From NCBI RefSeq assembly GCF_013408175.1, contig NZ_JACBYW010000001.1:744001-808000 (forward strand): 64,000 nucleotides of DNA, written 5' to 3'. The position numbers and the translations under genes were made by a program. Under the pieces are notes generated by a model, which ran no database searches, was not told the DNA's origin, and saw nothing but the letters and a program-made list of their open reading frames with translations. The first letter of the stretch is position 1; each line of letters starts with the position of its first letter. Below, piece by piece: positions 10,128-19,791 of this stretch. This DNA is from Actinopolyspora biskrensis (lineage in GTDB: Bacteria; Actinomycetota; Actinomycetes; Mycobacteriales; Pseudonocardiaceae).

Positions 10128-10721
10128 TCACGCCGGTGCCGAGCCCTTCCGCGCGGCCGCGGGGAGTTCGGTATCGGGTGCTGCCGGCCAGCGTCGTGCG
10201 TCGGGGCCGAGGGCGCGGAGCTGGTGTACCTGTTGGACGCACCAGGGGGAGAGGTCGGGCATCTCGTCGGCCGCGGCGGTTTCCGCGAACTCGTCCCAGG
10301 GCGTCCACCGGAGGGCGTCGACTTCGGCGGGGTCGGGGTGCGGCACGGCGCGGGTTCGGGCGCGAAAGACCGGGCACATCTCGTTTTCCACGGTGCCGTT
10401 GTCCATGACGGCGCGGTAGCGAAATGCGGGCAGGATCAGCTCGACGGCCTCAGTGGACAGGCCCAGCTCCTCGTGCAGCCGCCGCGTGACCGCCGTGGTG
10501 AGGGGTTCGCCGGGGGAGGGGTGCCCGCAGCAGGAGTTGCTCCACACCCCGGGCCAGGTCGTCTTGCTCGTGGCGCGCCGGGTCAGCAGGAGCTGGTTGT
10601 CCCCGTTGATGACGTAGCAGGAAAAGGCCAGGTGCAGTGGGGTGTGCTCGTGGTGCACGGTGGCTTTGTCGGCGACGCCGCTGGCGTGACCGGACTCGTC
10701 GAGCAGGACGACTTCTTCCAC
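10128..10721 (-). CDS. idi: Isopentenyl-diphosphate delta-isomerase, type I
   Basis: It interconverts IPP and DMAPP, the precursors for polyprenyl diphosphates. The protein is about 197 residues with a Nudix-like fold. WSNSCCGHPSPGE contains the active-site cysteine, and ENEMCPVF carries the glutamates that bind the divalent metal. Both motifs are diagnostic for type I Idi. The GTG at 10721 is chosen because AAGGA lies six bases upstream; an in-frame ATG at 10748 would add nine residues. It is divergent from the encapsulin/geosmin genes, with a 291-base shared upstream region. Together with the farnesyl diphosphate synthase gene at 17000 it would supply the precursor for geosmin. Confidence 0.95.
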   Translation of the reverse strand: MEEVVLLDESGHASGVADKATVHHEHTPLHLAFSCYVINGDNQLLLTRRATSKTTWPGVWSNSCCGHPSPGEPLTTAVTRRLHEELGLSTEAVELILPAFRYRAVMDNGTVENEMCPVFRARTRAVPHPDPAEVDALRWTPWDEFAETAAADEMPDLSPWCVQQVHQLRALGPDARRWPAAPDTELPAAARKGSAPA

Positions 10722-11012
10722 TGTGGTTCCTTCCTGGCGTGCCGGCAAGCGTGATCATCGTGGCGTTGGCGACGTGTCGTGTCGACCTCTCGCTCGTGTA
10801 TGTGACTGGCCAAACACGACTTGTGCTAGCTCGTATTGATCAATTAGCTTACCCCATCAGGTGGCTGCTGATCACCTTTTCGGGTGATTACCAGCAGTCG
10901 CCCTCCGACTGGGAAGAGCACGTTCGGAACCTGCTGGGGAGAGTTCGGCGCGCAGGTATCAACTGGTCTGACTGGACGGACGGGAATGTGACATACGTCT
11001 AATTGGTGGTGT
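10722..11012. promoter_or_regulatory. Divergent control region between idi and the encapsulin/geosmin genes
   Basis: This stretch is less GC-rich than its surroundings and must hold the promoters of both idi and encapsulin A. An inverted repeat at 10866-10896 (TGCTG-ATCACC, short loop, GGTGAT, then CAGCA) could be an operator or an RNA hairpin in the leader. I could not assign -35/-10 boxes confidently. Confidence 0.4.
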
Positions 11013-12434
11013 GTGGTGACAAGCACGGAGTCGGCCTTCGGGCAGCAGAACGGTGACGGACAGTCTCCGTTGAGTCTGGGTACGGCGGCGGCGCGGAATC
11101 TGTCGACGACGACGAAGACGCCGCCGCAGATGCAGTCGATCACTTCGCGGTGGTTACTGCGCCTGCTGCCGTGGGTGCAGGCCTCGGGCGGGGCCTACCG
11201 GGTGAACCGCAGGTTGAGCTACCAGCTCGGGGACGGGCTGGTGACGTTCTCCAACACCGGATCGACGGTGCGGGTGATCCCGGGCGAGTTGTGCGAGCTG
11301 CCCGCGCTGCGGGGTTTCGACGACACCACGGTGCTGGAGGGGTTGGCCGAGCGCTTCGTGCAGCGCGAGTACGCCGCGGGTGATGTGATCGCCGAGGCGG
11401 GACGCCCGGACGAAGAGGTCGTGCTCATCGCGCACGGCAAGGTGAACAAGCTCGGCACGGGGCCCTACGGGGAGCAGACGGTGCTGGGAGTGCTGGCCGG
11501 TGGGGAGCACTTCGGCGGTCAGGTGCTGGCCGAGGGGCAGGGTAGCTGGGAGTTCACCGCCAAGGCCGTGACTCCGTGCACGGTGCTGGCGCTGCCGCGC
11601 CGGTCCGCCCAGGAGGTGGTGGATCGCTCCGAGGCGCTGCGCGGCCACCTCGCCCAGCTCCGGAGCGGTCCGCAGGGGGCGCACAACGAGGACGGCGAGG
11701 CCGCGGTCTCGGTGGCCGCCGGGCACGCCGGCGAGCCGGACCTGCCGGGCACGTTCGTCGATTACGAGCTCAAGCCCCGCGAGTACGAGCTCAGCGTGGC
11801 CCAGACGGTGTTGCGCGTGCACAGCCGGGTCGCGGATCTGTACAACAAGCCGATGGACCAGACCGAGCAGCAGCTGCGCCTGACCATTCAGGAGCTGCGC
11901 GAGGAGCAGGAGCGGGAGCTGGTCAACAACCGCGAGTTCGGCTTGCTGCACAACGCCGACCTGCGCCAGCGCGTCCACACCCGCACCGGCCCGCCCACCC
12001 CGGACGACATGGACGAGCTGCTGTCGCTGGTGTGGAAGGACCCCGGCTTCTTCCTGGCGCACCCGCGGGCCATCGCCGCGTTCGGCCGCGAGTGCAGCCG
12101 CCGCGGGTTGTATCCGGCCAATGTGGATGTCGGTGGGCACCAGGTGCCCGCGTGGCGGGGTGTGCCGCTGTTCCCGTGCAACAAGTTGCCGATGAGCAGT
12201 CAGCGGACCACCTCGATCATGCTGATGCGCACCGGTGAGGCGAACCAGGGCGTGGTCGGGCTGCACCAGACCGGTCTTCCGGACGAGTACGAACCGGGCC
12301 TGTCGGTGCGTTTCATGAACATCAGCGAGAAGGCCATCATCTCGTACCTGGTCTCCACCTACTACTCCGCCGCGGTGCTCGTGCCGGACGCGCTGGCGGT
12401 GCTGGACGACGTCCAGACGGGCCGGGAAAGCTGA
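11013..12434 (+). CDS. Family 2B encapsulin shell protein A (cNMP-binding insertion)
   Basis: This about 473-residue protein is a nanocompartment shell protein with the HK97 fold, often misannotated as a Crp-like regulator. The N-terminal arm contains [15 protein letters not shown] followed by [19 protein letters not shown] cyclic-nucleotide-binding beta-barrel is inserted at about residues 100-215 ([27 protein letters not shown]). The remaining HK97 region is typical of family 2B ([53 protein letters not shown]). There is no HTH. It lies 3 bases upstream of the geosmin synthase gene, so translational coupling is likely. Codon 48 is TTA (11154-11156), a rare leucine codon. Either of two tandem GTG codons (11013, 11016) could be the start. 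A paralogous shell gene follows the synthase. Confidence 0.92.
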
Positions 12435-14786
<2,352 letters not shown>

Positions 14787-14848
14787 CCGGAACGGTGCCG
14801 TTCCCGTTCCCGCTTCCCGCCCCGACACACGATGGGTGACTACACAAC

Positions 14849-16261
14849 ATGACCGAGAGCGCGCCGGACGCGGCGTCCCTCCCCGCCCACGACGCCCAGC
14901 AGCAACTCAGCCTGGGGACCGCGGCAGCACGCAATCTGGCGACGACGACGAAGACGCCGCCGCAGATGCAGTCGATCAGCCCGCGGTGGCTGCTGCGCAT
15001 GCTGCCCTGGACCGAAACCACCAGCGGTTCCTACCGGGTCAACCGCAGGCTGACCTACGAGCTCGGCGACGGGCGTCTGACGTTCTCCAACACCGGCGAT
15101 CAGGTTCGCGTGCTGCCGCCGGAACTCCGCGAGATCGCCTCCCTGCGCGATCTCGACGACGAGACGGTGCTGACCGCGCTGGCCGACAGGTTCACCCAGC
15201 ACCACTACGCGGCGGGGGAGAGCATCACCACCGCGGGCCAGCCCGCCGATGAGCTGATGCTGCTGGCCCACGGCAAGGTCAACACCCGGACCCCGGGGCC
15301 CTACGGGGACGAGACCTCGCGGGACGTGCTCGCCGACGGCGAGTACTTCGGCGAGCACGTCCTCACCGGCGGCCGGGAGACCTGGCCCGTCACGGCCACC
15401 GCGTTGACCCCGTGCATCGTGCTGAGCCTGTCCCGCCGTGCCGTGGACGAGCTCGCCGACCGCTCCGAGCCGCTGCGCACCCACCTCGAACGGGTGCGCA
15501 ACCGCGCTCGGCCCGCGCAGAACAAGCACGGCGAGGCCGTCATGCGGCTGGCAGCCGGGCACGACGGCGAGCCCGAGCTGCCCGGCACGTTCGCCGACTA
15601 CGATCTCAACCCTCGCGAGTACGAGCTCAGCGTCGCCCAGACCATCCTGCGCGTGCACACCCGGGTCAACGACCTGTACAGCCAGCCGATGAACCAGCTC
15701 GACCAGCAGCTGCGGCTCACGGTGGAAGAGCTGCGTGAGCAGCAGGAGGCGGACCTGATCAACAACCGCGAGTTCGGGCTGCTGCACAACGCCGACCTGC
15801 GTCAACGCCTCCAAACCACCGGGGGTCCGCCCAGTCCGGGCGATCTCGACGAGCTGCTGTCCCGGCGGCGCAAGTCCGAGTTCTTCCTCGCCCATCCGCG
15901 CACCATCGCCGCGTTCGGCCGCGAGTGCAACCGCCAGGGCGTCTACCCGGACAGCATCGACGTGGACGGCACCCGCGTGACCGCCTGGCGTGGTGTGCCG
16001 CTGCTGCCCTGCAACAAGATCCCCATCAGCGAGACCAACACCAGCTCGGTCCTGGTCATGCGGACCGGGGAGGACCACCAGGGCGTGGTCGGGCTGCACC
16101 AGACCGGTATCCCCGACGAGTACGCTCCCAGCCTCAACGTGCGGTTCATGGGCCTCAACGCCAAGGCCGTCACTTCGTACCTGGTCAGCGCGTACTACTC
16201 CGCCGCCGTGCTCACCCCCGACGCACTCGGCGTGCTGGAGAACGTCGAAATCGCCAGTTGA
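14849..16261 (+). CDS. Family 2B encapsulin shell protein B (cNMP-binding insertion)
   Basis: This 470-residue paralogue of the shell protein at 11013 has the same arrangement: an N-arm with [15 protein letters not shown], an inserted cNMP-binding domain ([24 protein letters not shown]), and an HK97 region ([49 protein letters not shown]). Both copies share nearly identical DNA around 11105-11145 and 14939-14980, pointing to duplication. The ATG at 14849 follows a 62-base gap after the synthase. The stop codon TGA (16259-16261) lies inside TTGA, the complement of the TCAA right-end cleavage site of an IS200/IS605 element. The native C-terminus may therefore have been altered by that insertion. 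I saw no TTA codon in this copy. Two shell genes could form a mixed shell. Confidence 0.92.
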
Positions 16262-16985
16262 CTTCCTCCCCGCCCCAGGGGGCGGGGGTTCCCGTCGGGC
16301 TCGCGTCCGATGTTTCCTGCTTCGTTGCCGACCGCCGGAGGGAGGACCCTTGCGGACTCACGTCAGCTCCACAGGCTTCGCCGGGGTTCTGCCCGGCTAC
16401 GGCTCGACCAGCGGCACGGATGTTCTTGGCCGCGTTGACGTCGCGCTCGTGCCGGGCGCGGCAGCCCGGGCACGTCCACGCCCGCACGGACAGCTTCGGA
16501 TGGCTCAGCAGGTGCCCGCAGGCCGAGCACGTCTTGCTGGACGGGTACCAGCGGTCGACCACCACGAGGATCTTGCCCGCGCCCTGCGAAGGAGTTCGCA
16601 AACGCGGTGTGCCGGTGCCGGAGCGTCTGTTGCAGCGGCACGGCCGAGACCTCGGACGGGAGCCCCGGGCCCTAGGCTCTCTTCCACGCGGCGAGGTTCG
16701 CGTCGGTTTCTTCGCACGAGGTGGACCGACCCTCGGTGCGCCGGCGGCGGTGCCGCGCATCGAGGGGCTCGTTCCACACCAGGCGGACGCAGCCGAACGT
16801 GCGGCCAAGCCGGGCCGCCTGCTCGGGGCCCGGGCAGGTCCGGCACTTGCACGCCGTCCGCGCACCGATCATTTTGCACGACTACCGATCACGAGTAAGC
16901 ACGGGTGCGTGGACACTGAACAGCACTCGGGACCGGCTCCTCCCCGGCGTGAACGCCGGAGCTTCCGCCGATCGGAGAAAAGGTG
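16258..16985 (-). mobile_element. Decayed IS200/IS605-type element with tnpB relic
   Basis: The element is oriented on the minus strand. Its right end is a GC hairpin (CCCCGCCCC pairing with GGGGCGGGG, 16268-16287) followed on the minus strand by GAGGAAGTCAA, where TCAA is the usual right cleavage site of this family. Its left end has a matching hairpin (CCGGCGT/ACGCCGG, 16944-16959). A broken tnpB lies between them and no tnpA was seen. The exact left boundary is uncertain. It separates shell B from the polyprenyl diphosphate synthase gene. Confidence 0.75.
16262..16872 (-). pseudogene. tnpB: TnpB (OrfB) remnant with internal deletion and frameshifts
   Basis: Three pieces of an RNA-guided TnpB nuclease are visible in different frames. 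The N-terminal piece (from ATG at 16872) has PEQAARLGRTFGCVRLVWNE and SCEETDANLAAWKR. A short following piece reads VPLQQTLRHRHTAFANSFAG. The C-terminal piece has CSACGHLLSHPKL and CPGCRARHERDVNAAKNI, which are the zinc ribbon and the RuvC-III aspartate segment. Roughly the middle half of the protein, including the RuvC-I aspartate and RuvC-II glutamate, is missing, so it cannot be an active nuclease. The C-terminal frame reads through the element end into shell B antisense. The 3' end, where TnpB guide RNAs arise, is preserved. Confidence 0.82.
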
Positions 16986-16999
16986 AAAGGAATACGCAC

Positions 17000-18043
17000 A
17001 TGGCAACCCCCGATGTGCTCCCGCACGCCGTCCCGGCCCAGGAGGCATACCGAGCTCTGGACGTCGCGCGCGGCCAGGTGGAGCCCGCGCTGCGGACCGC
17101 CCTCGACACGCTGCCCGAGGACATGCGCCACATCGCTCGGTACCAGTTCGGCTGGATCGACGAGCACGGCCACCCCAGCGACGCCTCCGGTGGTAAGGCG
17201 CTGCGTCCCGCGCTGGTCCTCCTCGCCGCCGAGGCCGTCGGCGGCACCGCCGAGGAGGCCCTGCCCGCCGCGGTCGCCGTCGAGCTCGTGCACAACTTCT
17301 CGCTGCTCCACGACGACGTCATCGACACCGACGCCACTCGCCGTCACCGCCCCACGGCATGGACCGTGTTCGGGGCCAGCGCGGCGATCCTGGCCGGCGA
17401 CGCCCTGCTCTCGCTGGCGTCCGGAGTGCTCGCCGACAGCGGGCATTCGGCCGCCCTGCCCGGCATGCGGCTGCTCAACACCACTGTCCAGGAGCTGATT
17501 CAGGGCCAGGTCACGGACCTGGCCTTCGAGCAACGCAGCGATGTGGACGTCGCAGAGTGTCAACGCATGGCCGAAGCCAAAACCGCCGCACTGCTGGCGA
17601 CCTCCTGCGAACTCGGTGCCCTGTTCGCGGGCGCCGGCCCGCAGCGAACCGAGCACCTGCGCCGCTTCGGTCACGATCTGGGGCTGGCCTTTCAGCACGT
17701 CGACGACCTGCTCGGAATCTGGGGTGATCCCGACGTGACCGGCAAATCCGCCTATTCCGACCTGCACGCCCGCAAGAAGACCCTGCCCGTGGTGTTCGCG
17801 TTGAACTCCGGCAGTCCCGCCGGGCAGCGACTCGCCGACCACTACCACCACCCTCCGGCCTCGGAAGCCGATCTGACCGACACCGCGGACCTCGTCGACA
17901 CGGCCGGGGGGCGCGCCTGGAGTCATGCCCAGACCGACCAGCTACTCACCCACGCCCTGCGTCAGCTCGAGGAGGCAGGTCTCATCGCCCGGACGCGTGA
18001 ACTGACCGCACTCGCGCACCTCGTCACCCAACGCGACCACTAG
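17000..18043 (+). CDS. Polyprenyl (probably farnesyl) diphosphate synthase of the encapsulin locus
   Basis: This 347-residue trans-prenyl diphosphate synthase condenses DMAPP/GPP with IPP. GGKALRPALVLLAAEAV precedes the first aspartate-rich motif (LLHDDVIDTD, around residue 102). GQVTDLAF and the second motif DDLLGIWGD follow. The family is commonly found next to family 2 encapsulins as a polyprenyl transferase partner and presumably feeds FPP to geosmin synthase. Chain length cannot be read with certainty. The ATG at 17000 has GAAAGG upstream, immediately after the left end of the decayed IS element, which now separates it from shell B. I see no GPTGLGT tag in it. Confidence 0.9.
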   Translation: MATPDVLPHAVPAQEAYRALDVARGQVEPALRTALDTLPEDMRHIARYQFGWIDEHGHPSDASGGKALRPALVLLAAEAVGGTAEEALPAAVAVELVHNFSLLHDDVIDTDATRRHRPTAWTVFGASAAILAGDALLSLASGVLADSGHSAALPGMRLLNTTVQELIQGQVTDLAFEQRSDVDVAECQRMAEAKTAALLATSCELGALFAGAGPQRTEHLRRFGHDLGLAFQHVDDLLGIWGDPDVTGKSAYSDLHARKKTLPVVFALNSGSPAGQRLADHYHHPPASEADLTDTADLVDTAGGRAWSHAQTDQLLTHALRQLEEAGLIARTRELTALAHLVTQRDH

Positions 18044-18242: not shown

Positions 18243-19064
18243 TCAGGTGAGCTTGATCTGGCGGTTGACATCCTTGTAGAGCAGGTACCGGAACTTGCCG
18301 GGACCACCGGCGTAGCAGGCCTGAGGGCAGAACGCGCGCAGCCACATGAAGTCGCCGGCTTCGACCTCGACCCAGTCGTCGTTGAGGCGGTAGACCGCCT
18401 TGCCCTCCAGGACGTAGATACCGTGTTCCATCACGTGCGTCTCGGCGAAGGGGATCACGGCGCCGGGATCGAACGTGACGATGTTGACGTGCATGTCGTG
18501 GGAGAGGTCGTCGGGATCGACGAATCGGGTGGTCGTCCACGCACCGTCGGTGTCCGGCATCGGAGTGGGGGTGATGTCCTGCTCCTGCACGGCGAAACCC
18601 TCGGGAGTCGGGTGCCCCCGCAGCGGCTCGTAAGCCTTGCGGACCCACTGGAAGCTGGCCGTCTCGTCCGACTCGTTGCTCACCGACCAGTCCGCGCCTG
18701 GGGGCAGGTAGGCGTAACCGCCGGGGGAGAGGACGTGGGGCTCGCCCTCGATCACGACGGTGAGCGTGCCGGAGAGCAGGAACAGCACCGATTCGACACC
18801 GCGCTCCGGTTCCGGTTCATCACTGCCCCCGCCGGGGGAGACCTCGACGATGTACTGTGCGAACGTGGTGGCGAACCCGGCCACGGGCCGGGCCAGGATC
18901 CAGGACCGCGTGCGGGTCCAGCCGGGCAGGTTGCTGGTGACGATGTCGCGCAGCACGCCGCGGGGGATGACGGTGTAGGCTTCCTTGACCACTGCCCGGT
19001 CGGTGAGCAGCGTGTCCTGCGACGGGAGTCCTCCCTGCGGGGTGTGGTACGACGGTGCGTCCAA
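18243..19064 (-). CDS. allE: (S)-ureidoglycine aminohydrolase (bicupin)
   Basis: This 273-residue two-cupin enzyme hydrolyses (S)-ureidoglycine to ureidoglycolate and ammonia in allantoin degradation. The C-terminal cupin carries IPFAETHVMEHGIYVLEGKA with the Mn-binding His/Glu set, then EAGDFMWLRAFCPQACYAGG, which is near-diagnostic for AllE/UGHY. E. coli AllE is 261 residues. The start chosen is TTG at 19064, because AGGAG sits six or so bases upstream; an in-frame ATG at 19133 would add an arginine-rich leader that looks non-coding. No other allantoin genes are in the window, so it stands alone here. Confidence 0.93.
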   Translation of the reverse strand: MDAPSYHTPQGGLPSQDTLLTDRAVVKEAYTVIPRGVLRDIVTSNLPGWTRTRSWILARPVAGFATTFAQYIVEVSPGGGSDEPEPERGVESVLFLLSGTLTVVIEGEPHVLSPGGYAYLPPGADWSVSNESDETASFQWVRKAYEPLRGHPTPEGFAVQEQDITPTPMPDTDGAWTTTRFVDPDDLSHDMHVNIVTFDPGAVIPFAETHVMEHGIYVLEGKAVYRLNDDWVEVEAGDFMWLRAFCPQACYAGGPGKFRYLLYKDVNRQIKLT

Positions 19065-19791
19065 GGTCTGCTCCTGTCCTGATCGGAGTTCGCGTGCTCG
19101 GCCCCGCGGTTGTGGTACGGGGCTTTTCGCCATGTCCGTCCGCGAGCGGTCAGCACATCGGACCGCCGTTGGCACGAGGGGCGAACCCCTTCAGCGGTCG
19201 GGAAGGGTCGTTGGCGGTGGTGATCGCTTCTCGCGCGCTCGACGTGCCCGTGTCGGAACCGGTGCCGGTCGTCGTCGACGAAGCACGACACCGCGCCGGG
19301 AAGCGGCGACTCCGACGGACGCGGTCTCTCCGCGCGGGGCGCCGCGCACGTGTGGTTCGTACGTCTGGACGAGCGCGATCGGGCCTGGTTTCGGCGGCGG
19401 CCGACTTGGTGCCGCCCCCTGCACGGTATCTAGTTTCGCAATTCGAAAAAACTATTTCACATTAAGGATAGTTTAGCCAGTCCTGTGATCCGGGTCAACG
19501 CCGCCGTGCGCAACAGCGGAGAAACCGTCGCGTGCCGGTGAAGGGGATGCGGATCGGCAGCCTGCGGTCCTCCAGCCGGGGTGCGGTGTTCTGACACACC
19601 GATGTCGGCGGCCGGAACCGGTCGGGAACCGAGCTCGCCCCGGTGCGTCGTTCGGGAGTCCGTCGTGCTCCAAGCCGAGCAGCCTCCGGGCGGGGTGCGA
19701 CGGCAAGTCGTCGGTTACGGTCGAGTGGATCAACGCCCATTGCGCGCAAGGGCTGTGACCGCTGCCGACCAACGGGTTTCGGAGAACGCTG
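19065..19791. promoter_or_regulatory. Intergenic region with an AT-rich nested operator
   Basis: No gene is supported here. An unusually AT-rich patch at 19431-19474 contains three ACTA/TAGT half-sites about 18-19 bases apart: TAGTTT at 19431, AAACTAT at 19449 and ATAGTTT at 19468. Consecutive pairs form inverted repeats. It probably marks a regulated promoter for the methyltransferase gene at 19792 or for allE. Confidence 0.45.

Follow-up and report, generated by a model that had tools for sequence, protein, structure and literature searches.

The window analysed here, a stretch of 64,000 nucleotides from Actinopolyspora biskrensis, contains a locus (positions 10128 to 18043) in which a geosmin synthase (GS) gene is bracketed by two genes for family 2B encapsulin shell proteins and followed by a gene for a polyprenyl transferase (PT). 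The locus as a whole is very probably explained by a mixed two-shell family 2B compartment for the geosmin synthase, with the synthase as a portable module. Read from its genes, it is a further example of a published kind of compartment, and its gene order is already in print (PMC12407261). The present analysis adds that the cargo gene was apparently exchanged and that synthase and shell genes co-occur across genomes, by which packaging in trans becomes directly testable.

Locus and Gene Order

The features of the locus are as follows, where CNB denotes cyclic-nucleotide-binding.

10128-10748 (-), idi, isopentenyl-diphosphate isomerase, divergent from the operon; NUDIX/isopentenyl-diphosphate isomerase (NF002995, 254 bits, cut-off 127)
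11013-12434 (+), shell A, 473 residues, family 2B encapsulin, Enc1 type
11364-11627 (+), CNB-fold insert of shell A (PF00027, residues 118-205, 52.6 bits)
12438-14786 (+), geosmin synthase, 782 residues, bifunctional germacradienol/geosmin synthase, putative cargo
12700-14700 (+), ends approximate, apparent exchanged tract within the synthase gene (sliding identity, protein identities and tree tests)
13488-13520 (+), internal copy of the cargo tag, in the interdomain linker of the synthase (consensus from PMC8346489)
14706-14738 (+), C-terminal copy of the cargo tag of the synthase (consensus from PMC8346489)
14849-16261 (+), shell B, 470 residues, family 2B encapsulin, Enc2 type
15200-15463 (+), CNB-fold insert of shell B (PF00027, residues 118-205, 54.6 bits)
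16255-16981, boundaries approximate, decayed IS200/IS605-type insertion, with a C-terminal fragment of TnpB in the (-) open reading frame 16212-16865
17000-18043 (+), PT, 347 residues, encapsulin-associated, possible second cargo

The gene order and coordinates proposed in a first-pass annotation of this DNA, namely divergent idi, shell A, synthase, shell B, decayed insertion sequence and PT, were confirmed. The stop codon of shell A lies 3 bp before the synthase gene and the synthase gene 62 bp before shell B, and all four operon frames (shell A, synthase, shell B and PT) are open. PMC12407261 describes two-component family 2B operons in which a cyclase may lie between Enc1 and Enc2 and a transferase after Enc2. 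The window has its cyclase between Enc1 and Enc2 and its transferase 3' of Enc2, which is the definition of the terpene cyclase/polyprenyl transferase (TC/PT) operon type given there.

Two Shell Proteins

The first-pass annotation had proposed two intact family 2B shells, each with an inserted nucleotide-binding domain, and had suggested a hidden Markov model search against family 2 encapsulins. In that search both proteins scored far above the cut-off of 400 bits of the NCBIfam family 2B model NF041163 (774.6 bits for shell A and 754 bits for shell B), and the SrpI-like HK97 shell domain PF19307 matched their C-terminal 250 residues with 456 and 450 bits, respectively. The cNMP_binding domain PF00027 occupies residues 118-205 in both, with the SrpI-like block beginning at about residue 220, and insert-free family 2A shells align to shells A and B in two stretches. 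The best PDB matches, 9bje for shell A (E 1.9e-211) and 9bix for shell B (E 6.8e-189), cover nearly the whole length. Both claims therefore stand, with one shell being of the Enc1 type and the other of the Enc2 type.

The presence of the CNB domain allows another explanation, in which the two proteins would be transcription regulators of the Crp/Fnr type next to a geosmin gene, and PMC7251104 labels their equivalents (cnb) in this way. However, Pfam gives no DNA-binding domain in either protein at E 0.001, and the SrpI-like scores together with the full-length matches to solved 2B shells make this explanation extremely improbable.

The two shells are 64% identical over 454 positions. According to PMC12407261, two diagnostic motifs separate Enc1 from Enc2. 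Shell A has LVWK (Enc1 form VWK) and GGHQVP, and shell B has RRRK and DGTRVT, which assigns them to the Enc1 and Enc2 types of that paper, respectively. Judged by these motifs, we infer that 9bje and 9bix are the Streptomyces lydicus Enc1 and Enc2 described there. The S. lydicus pair was shown to co-assemble, with mixed shells being preferred and Enc1 alone forming no shells (PMC12407261). Because of this co-assembly, mixed-shell packaging, as the first-pass annotation had suggested, is by analogy the likely mechanism here as well.

Alternatively, each shell could form a homogeneous compartment of its own, with the synthase in one and PT in the other. The locus encodes two putative cargos, and the loop that carries diagnostic motif 2 on the lumen side is not the same in Enc1 and Enc2, for which two loading routes are suggested in PMC12407261. 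This alternative is rather unlikely in view of the behaviour of the S. lydicus proteins, and both diagnostic motifs are conserved in the shells of the window.

Gating by a nucleotide ligand had also been proposed. At what we take to be the location of the phosphate-binding arginine of the CNB pocket, no Arg was seen by eye in the corresponding stretch of shell A. In shell B, the kinase Arg pairs with a Glu, but the alignment has a gap and low confidence at this point, next to an Arg. PMC12407261 states that the family 2B CNB domain had earlier been shown to bind no cyclic nucleotide, and in its S. lydicus structures the inserted CNB-fold domains lie above the two-fold pore. The inserted domains thus stand and their nucleotide gating is doubtful, since shell A and the published statement speak against it and the alignment of shell B is ambiguous. 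On the same grounds, gating by cyclic nucleotides was judged unlikely, although it could still apply to shell B.

Geosmin Synthase and Cargo Tags

The synthase contains two PF19086 (Terpene_syn_C_2) stretches. Its best PDB match is 5dw7 (E 1e-134), and 5dw7 and 5dz2, which are germacradienol/geosmin synthase structures, cover the N-terminal domain. At the positions that we take to be the metal-binding motifs of geosmin synthase, both domains are intact (D94 D95 E99 and N238 S242 E246; D474 D475 and N617 S621 E625). Two cargo tags of the published type, 11 residues each, are found in the linker and at the C-terminal tail, and in PMC8346489 the tag of geosmin-synthase-like cyclases is likewise described as lying between the domains, with a second copy at the C-terminus. 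The domains, both metal-motif pairs and the two tag copies agree with the earlier proposal of a geosmin synthase between the shells, which is complete as predicted from its residues.

The distribution of the tag was analysed in the named relatives, a survey of the best 80 of 476 confirmed relatives. The strict motif GP[TS]GLGT was found in the linker of 26 of the 37 synthases with a shell nearby (L070, L098 and L121 of these gave no clean linker) and of 5 of the 34 without, where 9 of the 43 shell-less loci had been left out for short flanks. In shuffled segments, the strict motif occurred in 0 of 30800 and the relaxed motif in 18 of 30800; neither the strict nor the relaxed tag was found in another terpene synthase of the same genome (L010).

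Conservation of the Architecture

The order Enc1-GS-Enc2-PT is present in all ten sampled Actinopolyspora genomes, the genome of the window included, and in two genomes of other genera (G014 and G021). These are the 12 loci in which the synthase shares 68% identity or more with that of the window, and all have this order. Since the same order is kept throughout the sampled genus and in two other genera, the arrangement is not due to chance.

In the survey of the best 80 of 476 named relatives, 11 loci have the synthase flanked on either side by shells, each within 4 kb, ten being actinobacterial and one from Sorangium; those of A. alba and H. lacisalsi are already within the 12. The shells lie 3' of the synthase in 17 loci, of which 13 have two shells and four have one, and in three of the latter the contig terminates in or at the shell. 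A further 7 loci have shells 5' of the synthase, 2 have them elsewhere in the locus, and 43 have no shell within the locus. In PMC7251104, cyanobacteria and deltaproteobacteria are described as having geoA together with two cnb genes, and actinobacteria as lacking a widely conserved order. For the myxobacteria analysed in the preprint PMC12224551, every geosmin cluster is reported to contain encapsulins.

Decayed Insertion before the Transferase

The decayed insertion sequence named in the first-pass annotation was confirmed, as the open reading frame at 16212-16865 has only the C-terminal piece of TnpB (PF07282, 64 bits; NF038281, 65 bits). The gap from shell B to PT is 738 bp in the window and 13 bp in G001 and G005, which have no insertion; in the other nine same-architecture loci the open frames of shell B and PT overlap or abut. 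The coding change of shell B in the window is limited to its last codons, and a stretch resembling a ribosome site is kept 5' of the PT start.

Such an insertion raises the question of whether the locus is a relic that has become redundant. It is seen in the window only, among the 12 loci, and a second synthase with intact motifs is encoded elsewhere in the genome. On the other side, the four frames are open, the catalytic motifs of the synthase are intact and the ribosome-site-like stretch is retained. In addition, G001, G005 and G006 have the only full-length synthase found in them at this locus. A relic is thus quite improbable, and the reading as a two-shell compartment is retained below.

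For the last gene, the best model is NF041169, encapsulin cargo polyprenyl transferase (464.6 bits, cut-off 450), and the protein belongs to the polyprenyl_synt family. It falls below the cut-offs of the farnesyl diphosphate synthase model FPPsyn (177 bits, cut-off 275) and of the geranylgeranyl diphosphate synthase model IdsB (338 bits, cut-off 475). Its earlier assignment as a farnesyl diphosphate synthase is therefore not supported.

Apparent Exchange of the Synthase Gene

At the protein level, the synthase of the window is 92% identical to that of Halosaccharopolyspora (G014), and Enc1, Enc2 and PT are 84%, 79% and 70% identical, respectively. Relative to the seven Actinopolyspora genomes other than those of the window, G001 and G005, the identity is 75-76% for the synthase, 88-90% for Enc1, 83-86% for Enc2 and 82-87% for PT. 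In the sliding analysis, in which 7 of 11 relatives were aligned, the DNA identity breaks sharply at about 12.65-12.75 kb and at 14.6-14.75 kb, inside the synthase gene.

Approximately unbiased (AU) tests rejected Actinopolyspora as one clade for the synthase (p 7.6e-5), and they rejected a group of the window, G001, G005 and G014 for Enc1 (p 0.0013), Enc2 (p 0.012) and PT (p 0.005), where the groups were picked after the identities were known, which weakens the p-values. The synthase gene alone seems to have moved between Actinopolyspora and another genus, the shells and PT apparently having been inherited with Actinopolyspora. Among the publication titles listed in literature searches, none on such a cargo exchange was found. 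Both tags were retained in this apparent intergeneric exchange, which points to modularity of shell and cargo.

Co-occurrence of Synthase and Shell

In a sample of relatives consisting of the own genome and 40 others (41 genomes), a strong synthase match (more than 400 bits) was found in 20 and a strong shell match in the same 20, counting G016, in which the sole match is a divergent two-domain cyclase. In a sample of the phylum (296 genomes), the synthase was found in 12, and all 12 have a shell; among the 284 synthase-free genomes, a shell exceeds the cut-off in 2, in one of these through the combined score of its pieces only. As a control, 15 of the 296 genomes have a family-2 terpene synthase and no geosmin synthase, and a shell was found in one of these. 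The Fisher test for 12/12 versus 1/15 gives p 7.5e-7, where kinship is ignored (8 of the 12 belong to one genus and 12 of the 15 to one family).

Among the named relatives, all 43 genomes with a shell-less synthase locus encode a shell; in 42 of them it exceeds the cut-off, and in the remaining genome it is split into two fragments. Short flanks occur in 9 of these loci, so that the shell may be near, and a few of the 43 overlap the first sample. In Cyanobacteria, 8 of 292 genomes have the synthase, and in Myxococcota 9 of 377; a shell, sought in the synthase genomes only, was found in 8/8 and 9/9, respectively. All geosmin-synthase genomes checked in the three phyla have a 2B shell gene, including those with a lone synthase.

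This co-occurrence suggests the packaging of lone synthases in trans; alternatively, the shells may serve other terpenes in the same lineages. A wider reading, in which geosmin synthesis would be obligately linked to family 2B shells, lone synthases would be packaged in trans and the synthase would be an exchangeable cargo working in shells of a foreign lineage, is possible, if less likely than not. No discussion of a lone synthase with a distant shell was found in the available parts of the cited literature.

Proposed Mechanism and Its Weighing

In the proposed mechanism, Enc1 and Enc2 would co-assemble into a closed mixed compartment, and the tags in the linker and the C-terminal tail would hold the synthase inside the shell. 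Farnesyl diphosphate would enter via the shell pores, and geosmin would exit. PT would be a second cargo or act just outside the shell. The CNB-fold domains may tune the access to the pores, probably not through the binding of cAMP or cGMP. The synthase gene would be a portable module, apparently exchanged between genera, with the shells and PT inherited with the genus.

Several points weigh against this explanation, in addition to the choice of the AU groups after the identities were known. Particles, cargo loading and product are predicted from the genes. The AlphaFold model of shell A is poor (mean confidence score pLDDT 47.5, from a 10-row alignment), so that the assignment of the HK97 fold rests on sequence homology. 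The synthase scores 1168.9 bits with NF041168, just below the encapsulated-cargo cut-off of 1200. None of the 12 synthase genomes in the actinobacterial sample passes that cut-off, compared with 8 of 8 cyanobacterial genomes and 6 of 9 of the Myxococcota sample, which indicates that it favours other phyla. The relaxed tag is found in the linker or tail of 31 of the 34 synthases without a nearby shell gene. A tree-aware test of the tag against shell adjacency, in which 68 of the 80 named rows were used and L064, L070, L098 and L121 were excluded from the tree, gave 4 independent pairs and no significance, and the association may therefore be due to descent alone. On the basis of this test, the tag was rejected as a marker of encapsulation.

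Comparison with Known Systems and Significance

The shell with the entry 9bhu, which we take to be the Streptomyces griseus shell of the 2-methylisoborneol system, presumably a single shell with another cyclase, is of the same shell family as those of the window and has the inserted CNB domain. The locus closely resembles the TC/PT two-component 2B operons of Dutcher, Andreas and Giessen (2025, PMC12407261), which share the order Enc1-cyclase-Enc2-transferase, both motifs and the shell family of 9bje and 9bix. In that paper the S. lydicus pair, which belongs to a system of the xylulose-kinase type, was analysed without cargo, whereas the window has a geosmin synthase and an insertion before PT. 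The 2B operons with geosmin-synthase-like cyclases of Andreas and Giessen (2021, PMC8346489) resemble the window in the two-domain cyclase with the tag in linker and C-terminus, and no difference in kind was found in the part of that paper available. The geoA-cnb-cnb loci of cyanobacteria and deltaproteobacteria (PMC7251104) and the myxobacterial clusters (PMC12224551, preprint) also combine a geosmin synthase with 2B shell genes. In these, two shells lie 3' of the synthase, mostly without a related transferase, whereas in the window the shells bracket the synthase.

Geosmin is a widespread earthy odorant and a taint of drinking water. Should encapsulation be the rule for geosmin synthases, the usual view of them as free cytosolic enzymes would be incomplete. 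The Streptomyces coelicolor enzyme is reported to make geosmin on its own (Jiang 2007), which counts against this. PMC7251104 reports that a geosmin synthase expressed in Escherichia coli gave other terpenes and no geosmin, and this result could have a testable cause if the synthases work in shells.

Other Loci and Neighbouring Genes

A further geosmin synthase with intact metal motifs is present in the same genome (L031, contig 6, 246.6-248.8 kb), and no shell or transferase was found in the 16 kb fetched around it. Some Actinopolyspora have a comparable lone copy, which was not found in others. The genome thus offers a natural comparison between a shell-bracketed synthase and a synthase with intact motifs and no shell found beside it. 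In G002, a lone synthase (L050) is split over two frames, as a broken copy or by a sequencing error, and the shell-bracketed copy is intact.

Contig 8 of the same genome carries a second Enc-cyclase-Enc-PT locus (L023, 60.2-65.3 kb), where the cyclase is a 976-residue open frame of a divergent two-domain type. The motifs of its N-domain are kept, and those of the C-domain are altered, with DE for DD and Cys for the second-motif serine. Because both C-domain motifs are altered, this cyclase probably makes no geosmin. Among its relatives, L024-L027 have lost both C-domain motifs, as if this half were a pseudoenzyme, and L029 retains them. The shells of L024 (9438-11003 and 5786-7192) both have RRRK, the Enc2 type, an exception to the Enc1/Enc2 rule that perhaps reflects gene conversion. 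In L028 (2055-5520), both shell genes appear as runs of N flanked by near-identical ends, which may be an assembly gap between near-identical copies or a masked stretch, and this locus was not used.

The gene idi is an optional neighbour of the operon. The first-pass annotation had placed it in the locus as part of the precursor supply; it is next to the operon in the window, but as a constant part it does not hold, since it adjoins the operon in 3 of the 12 same-architecture loci (window, G001 and G014). Just downstream of the operon (18243-19175, (-)) lies a gene of purine breakdown for (S)-ureidoglycine aminohydrolase, a homologue of which is near the operon in 5 of the 9 other loci of the genus that were fetched; it is probably unrelated.

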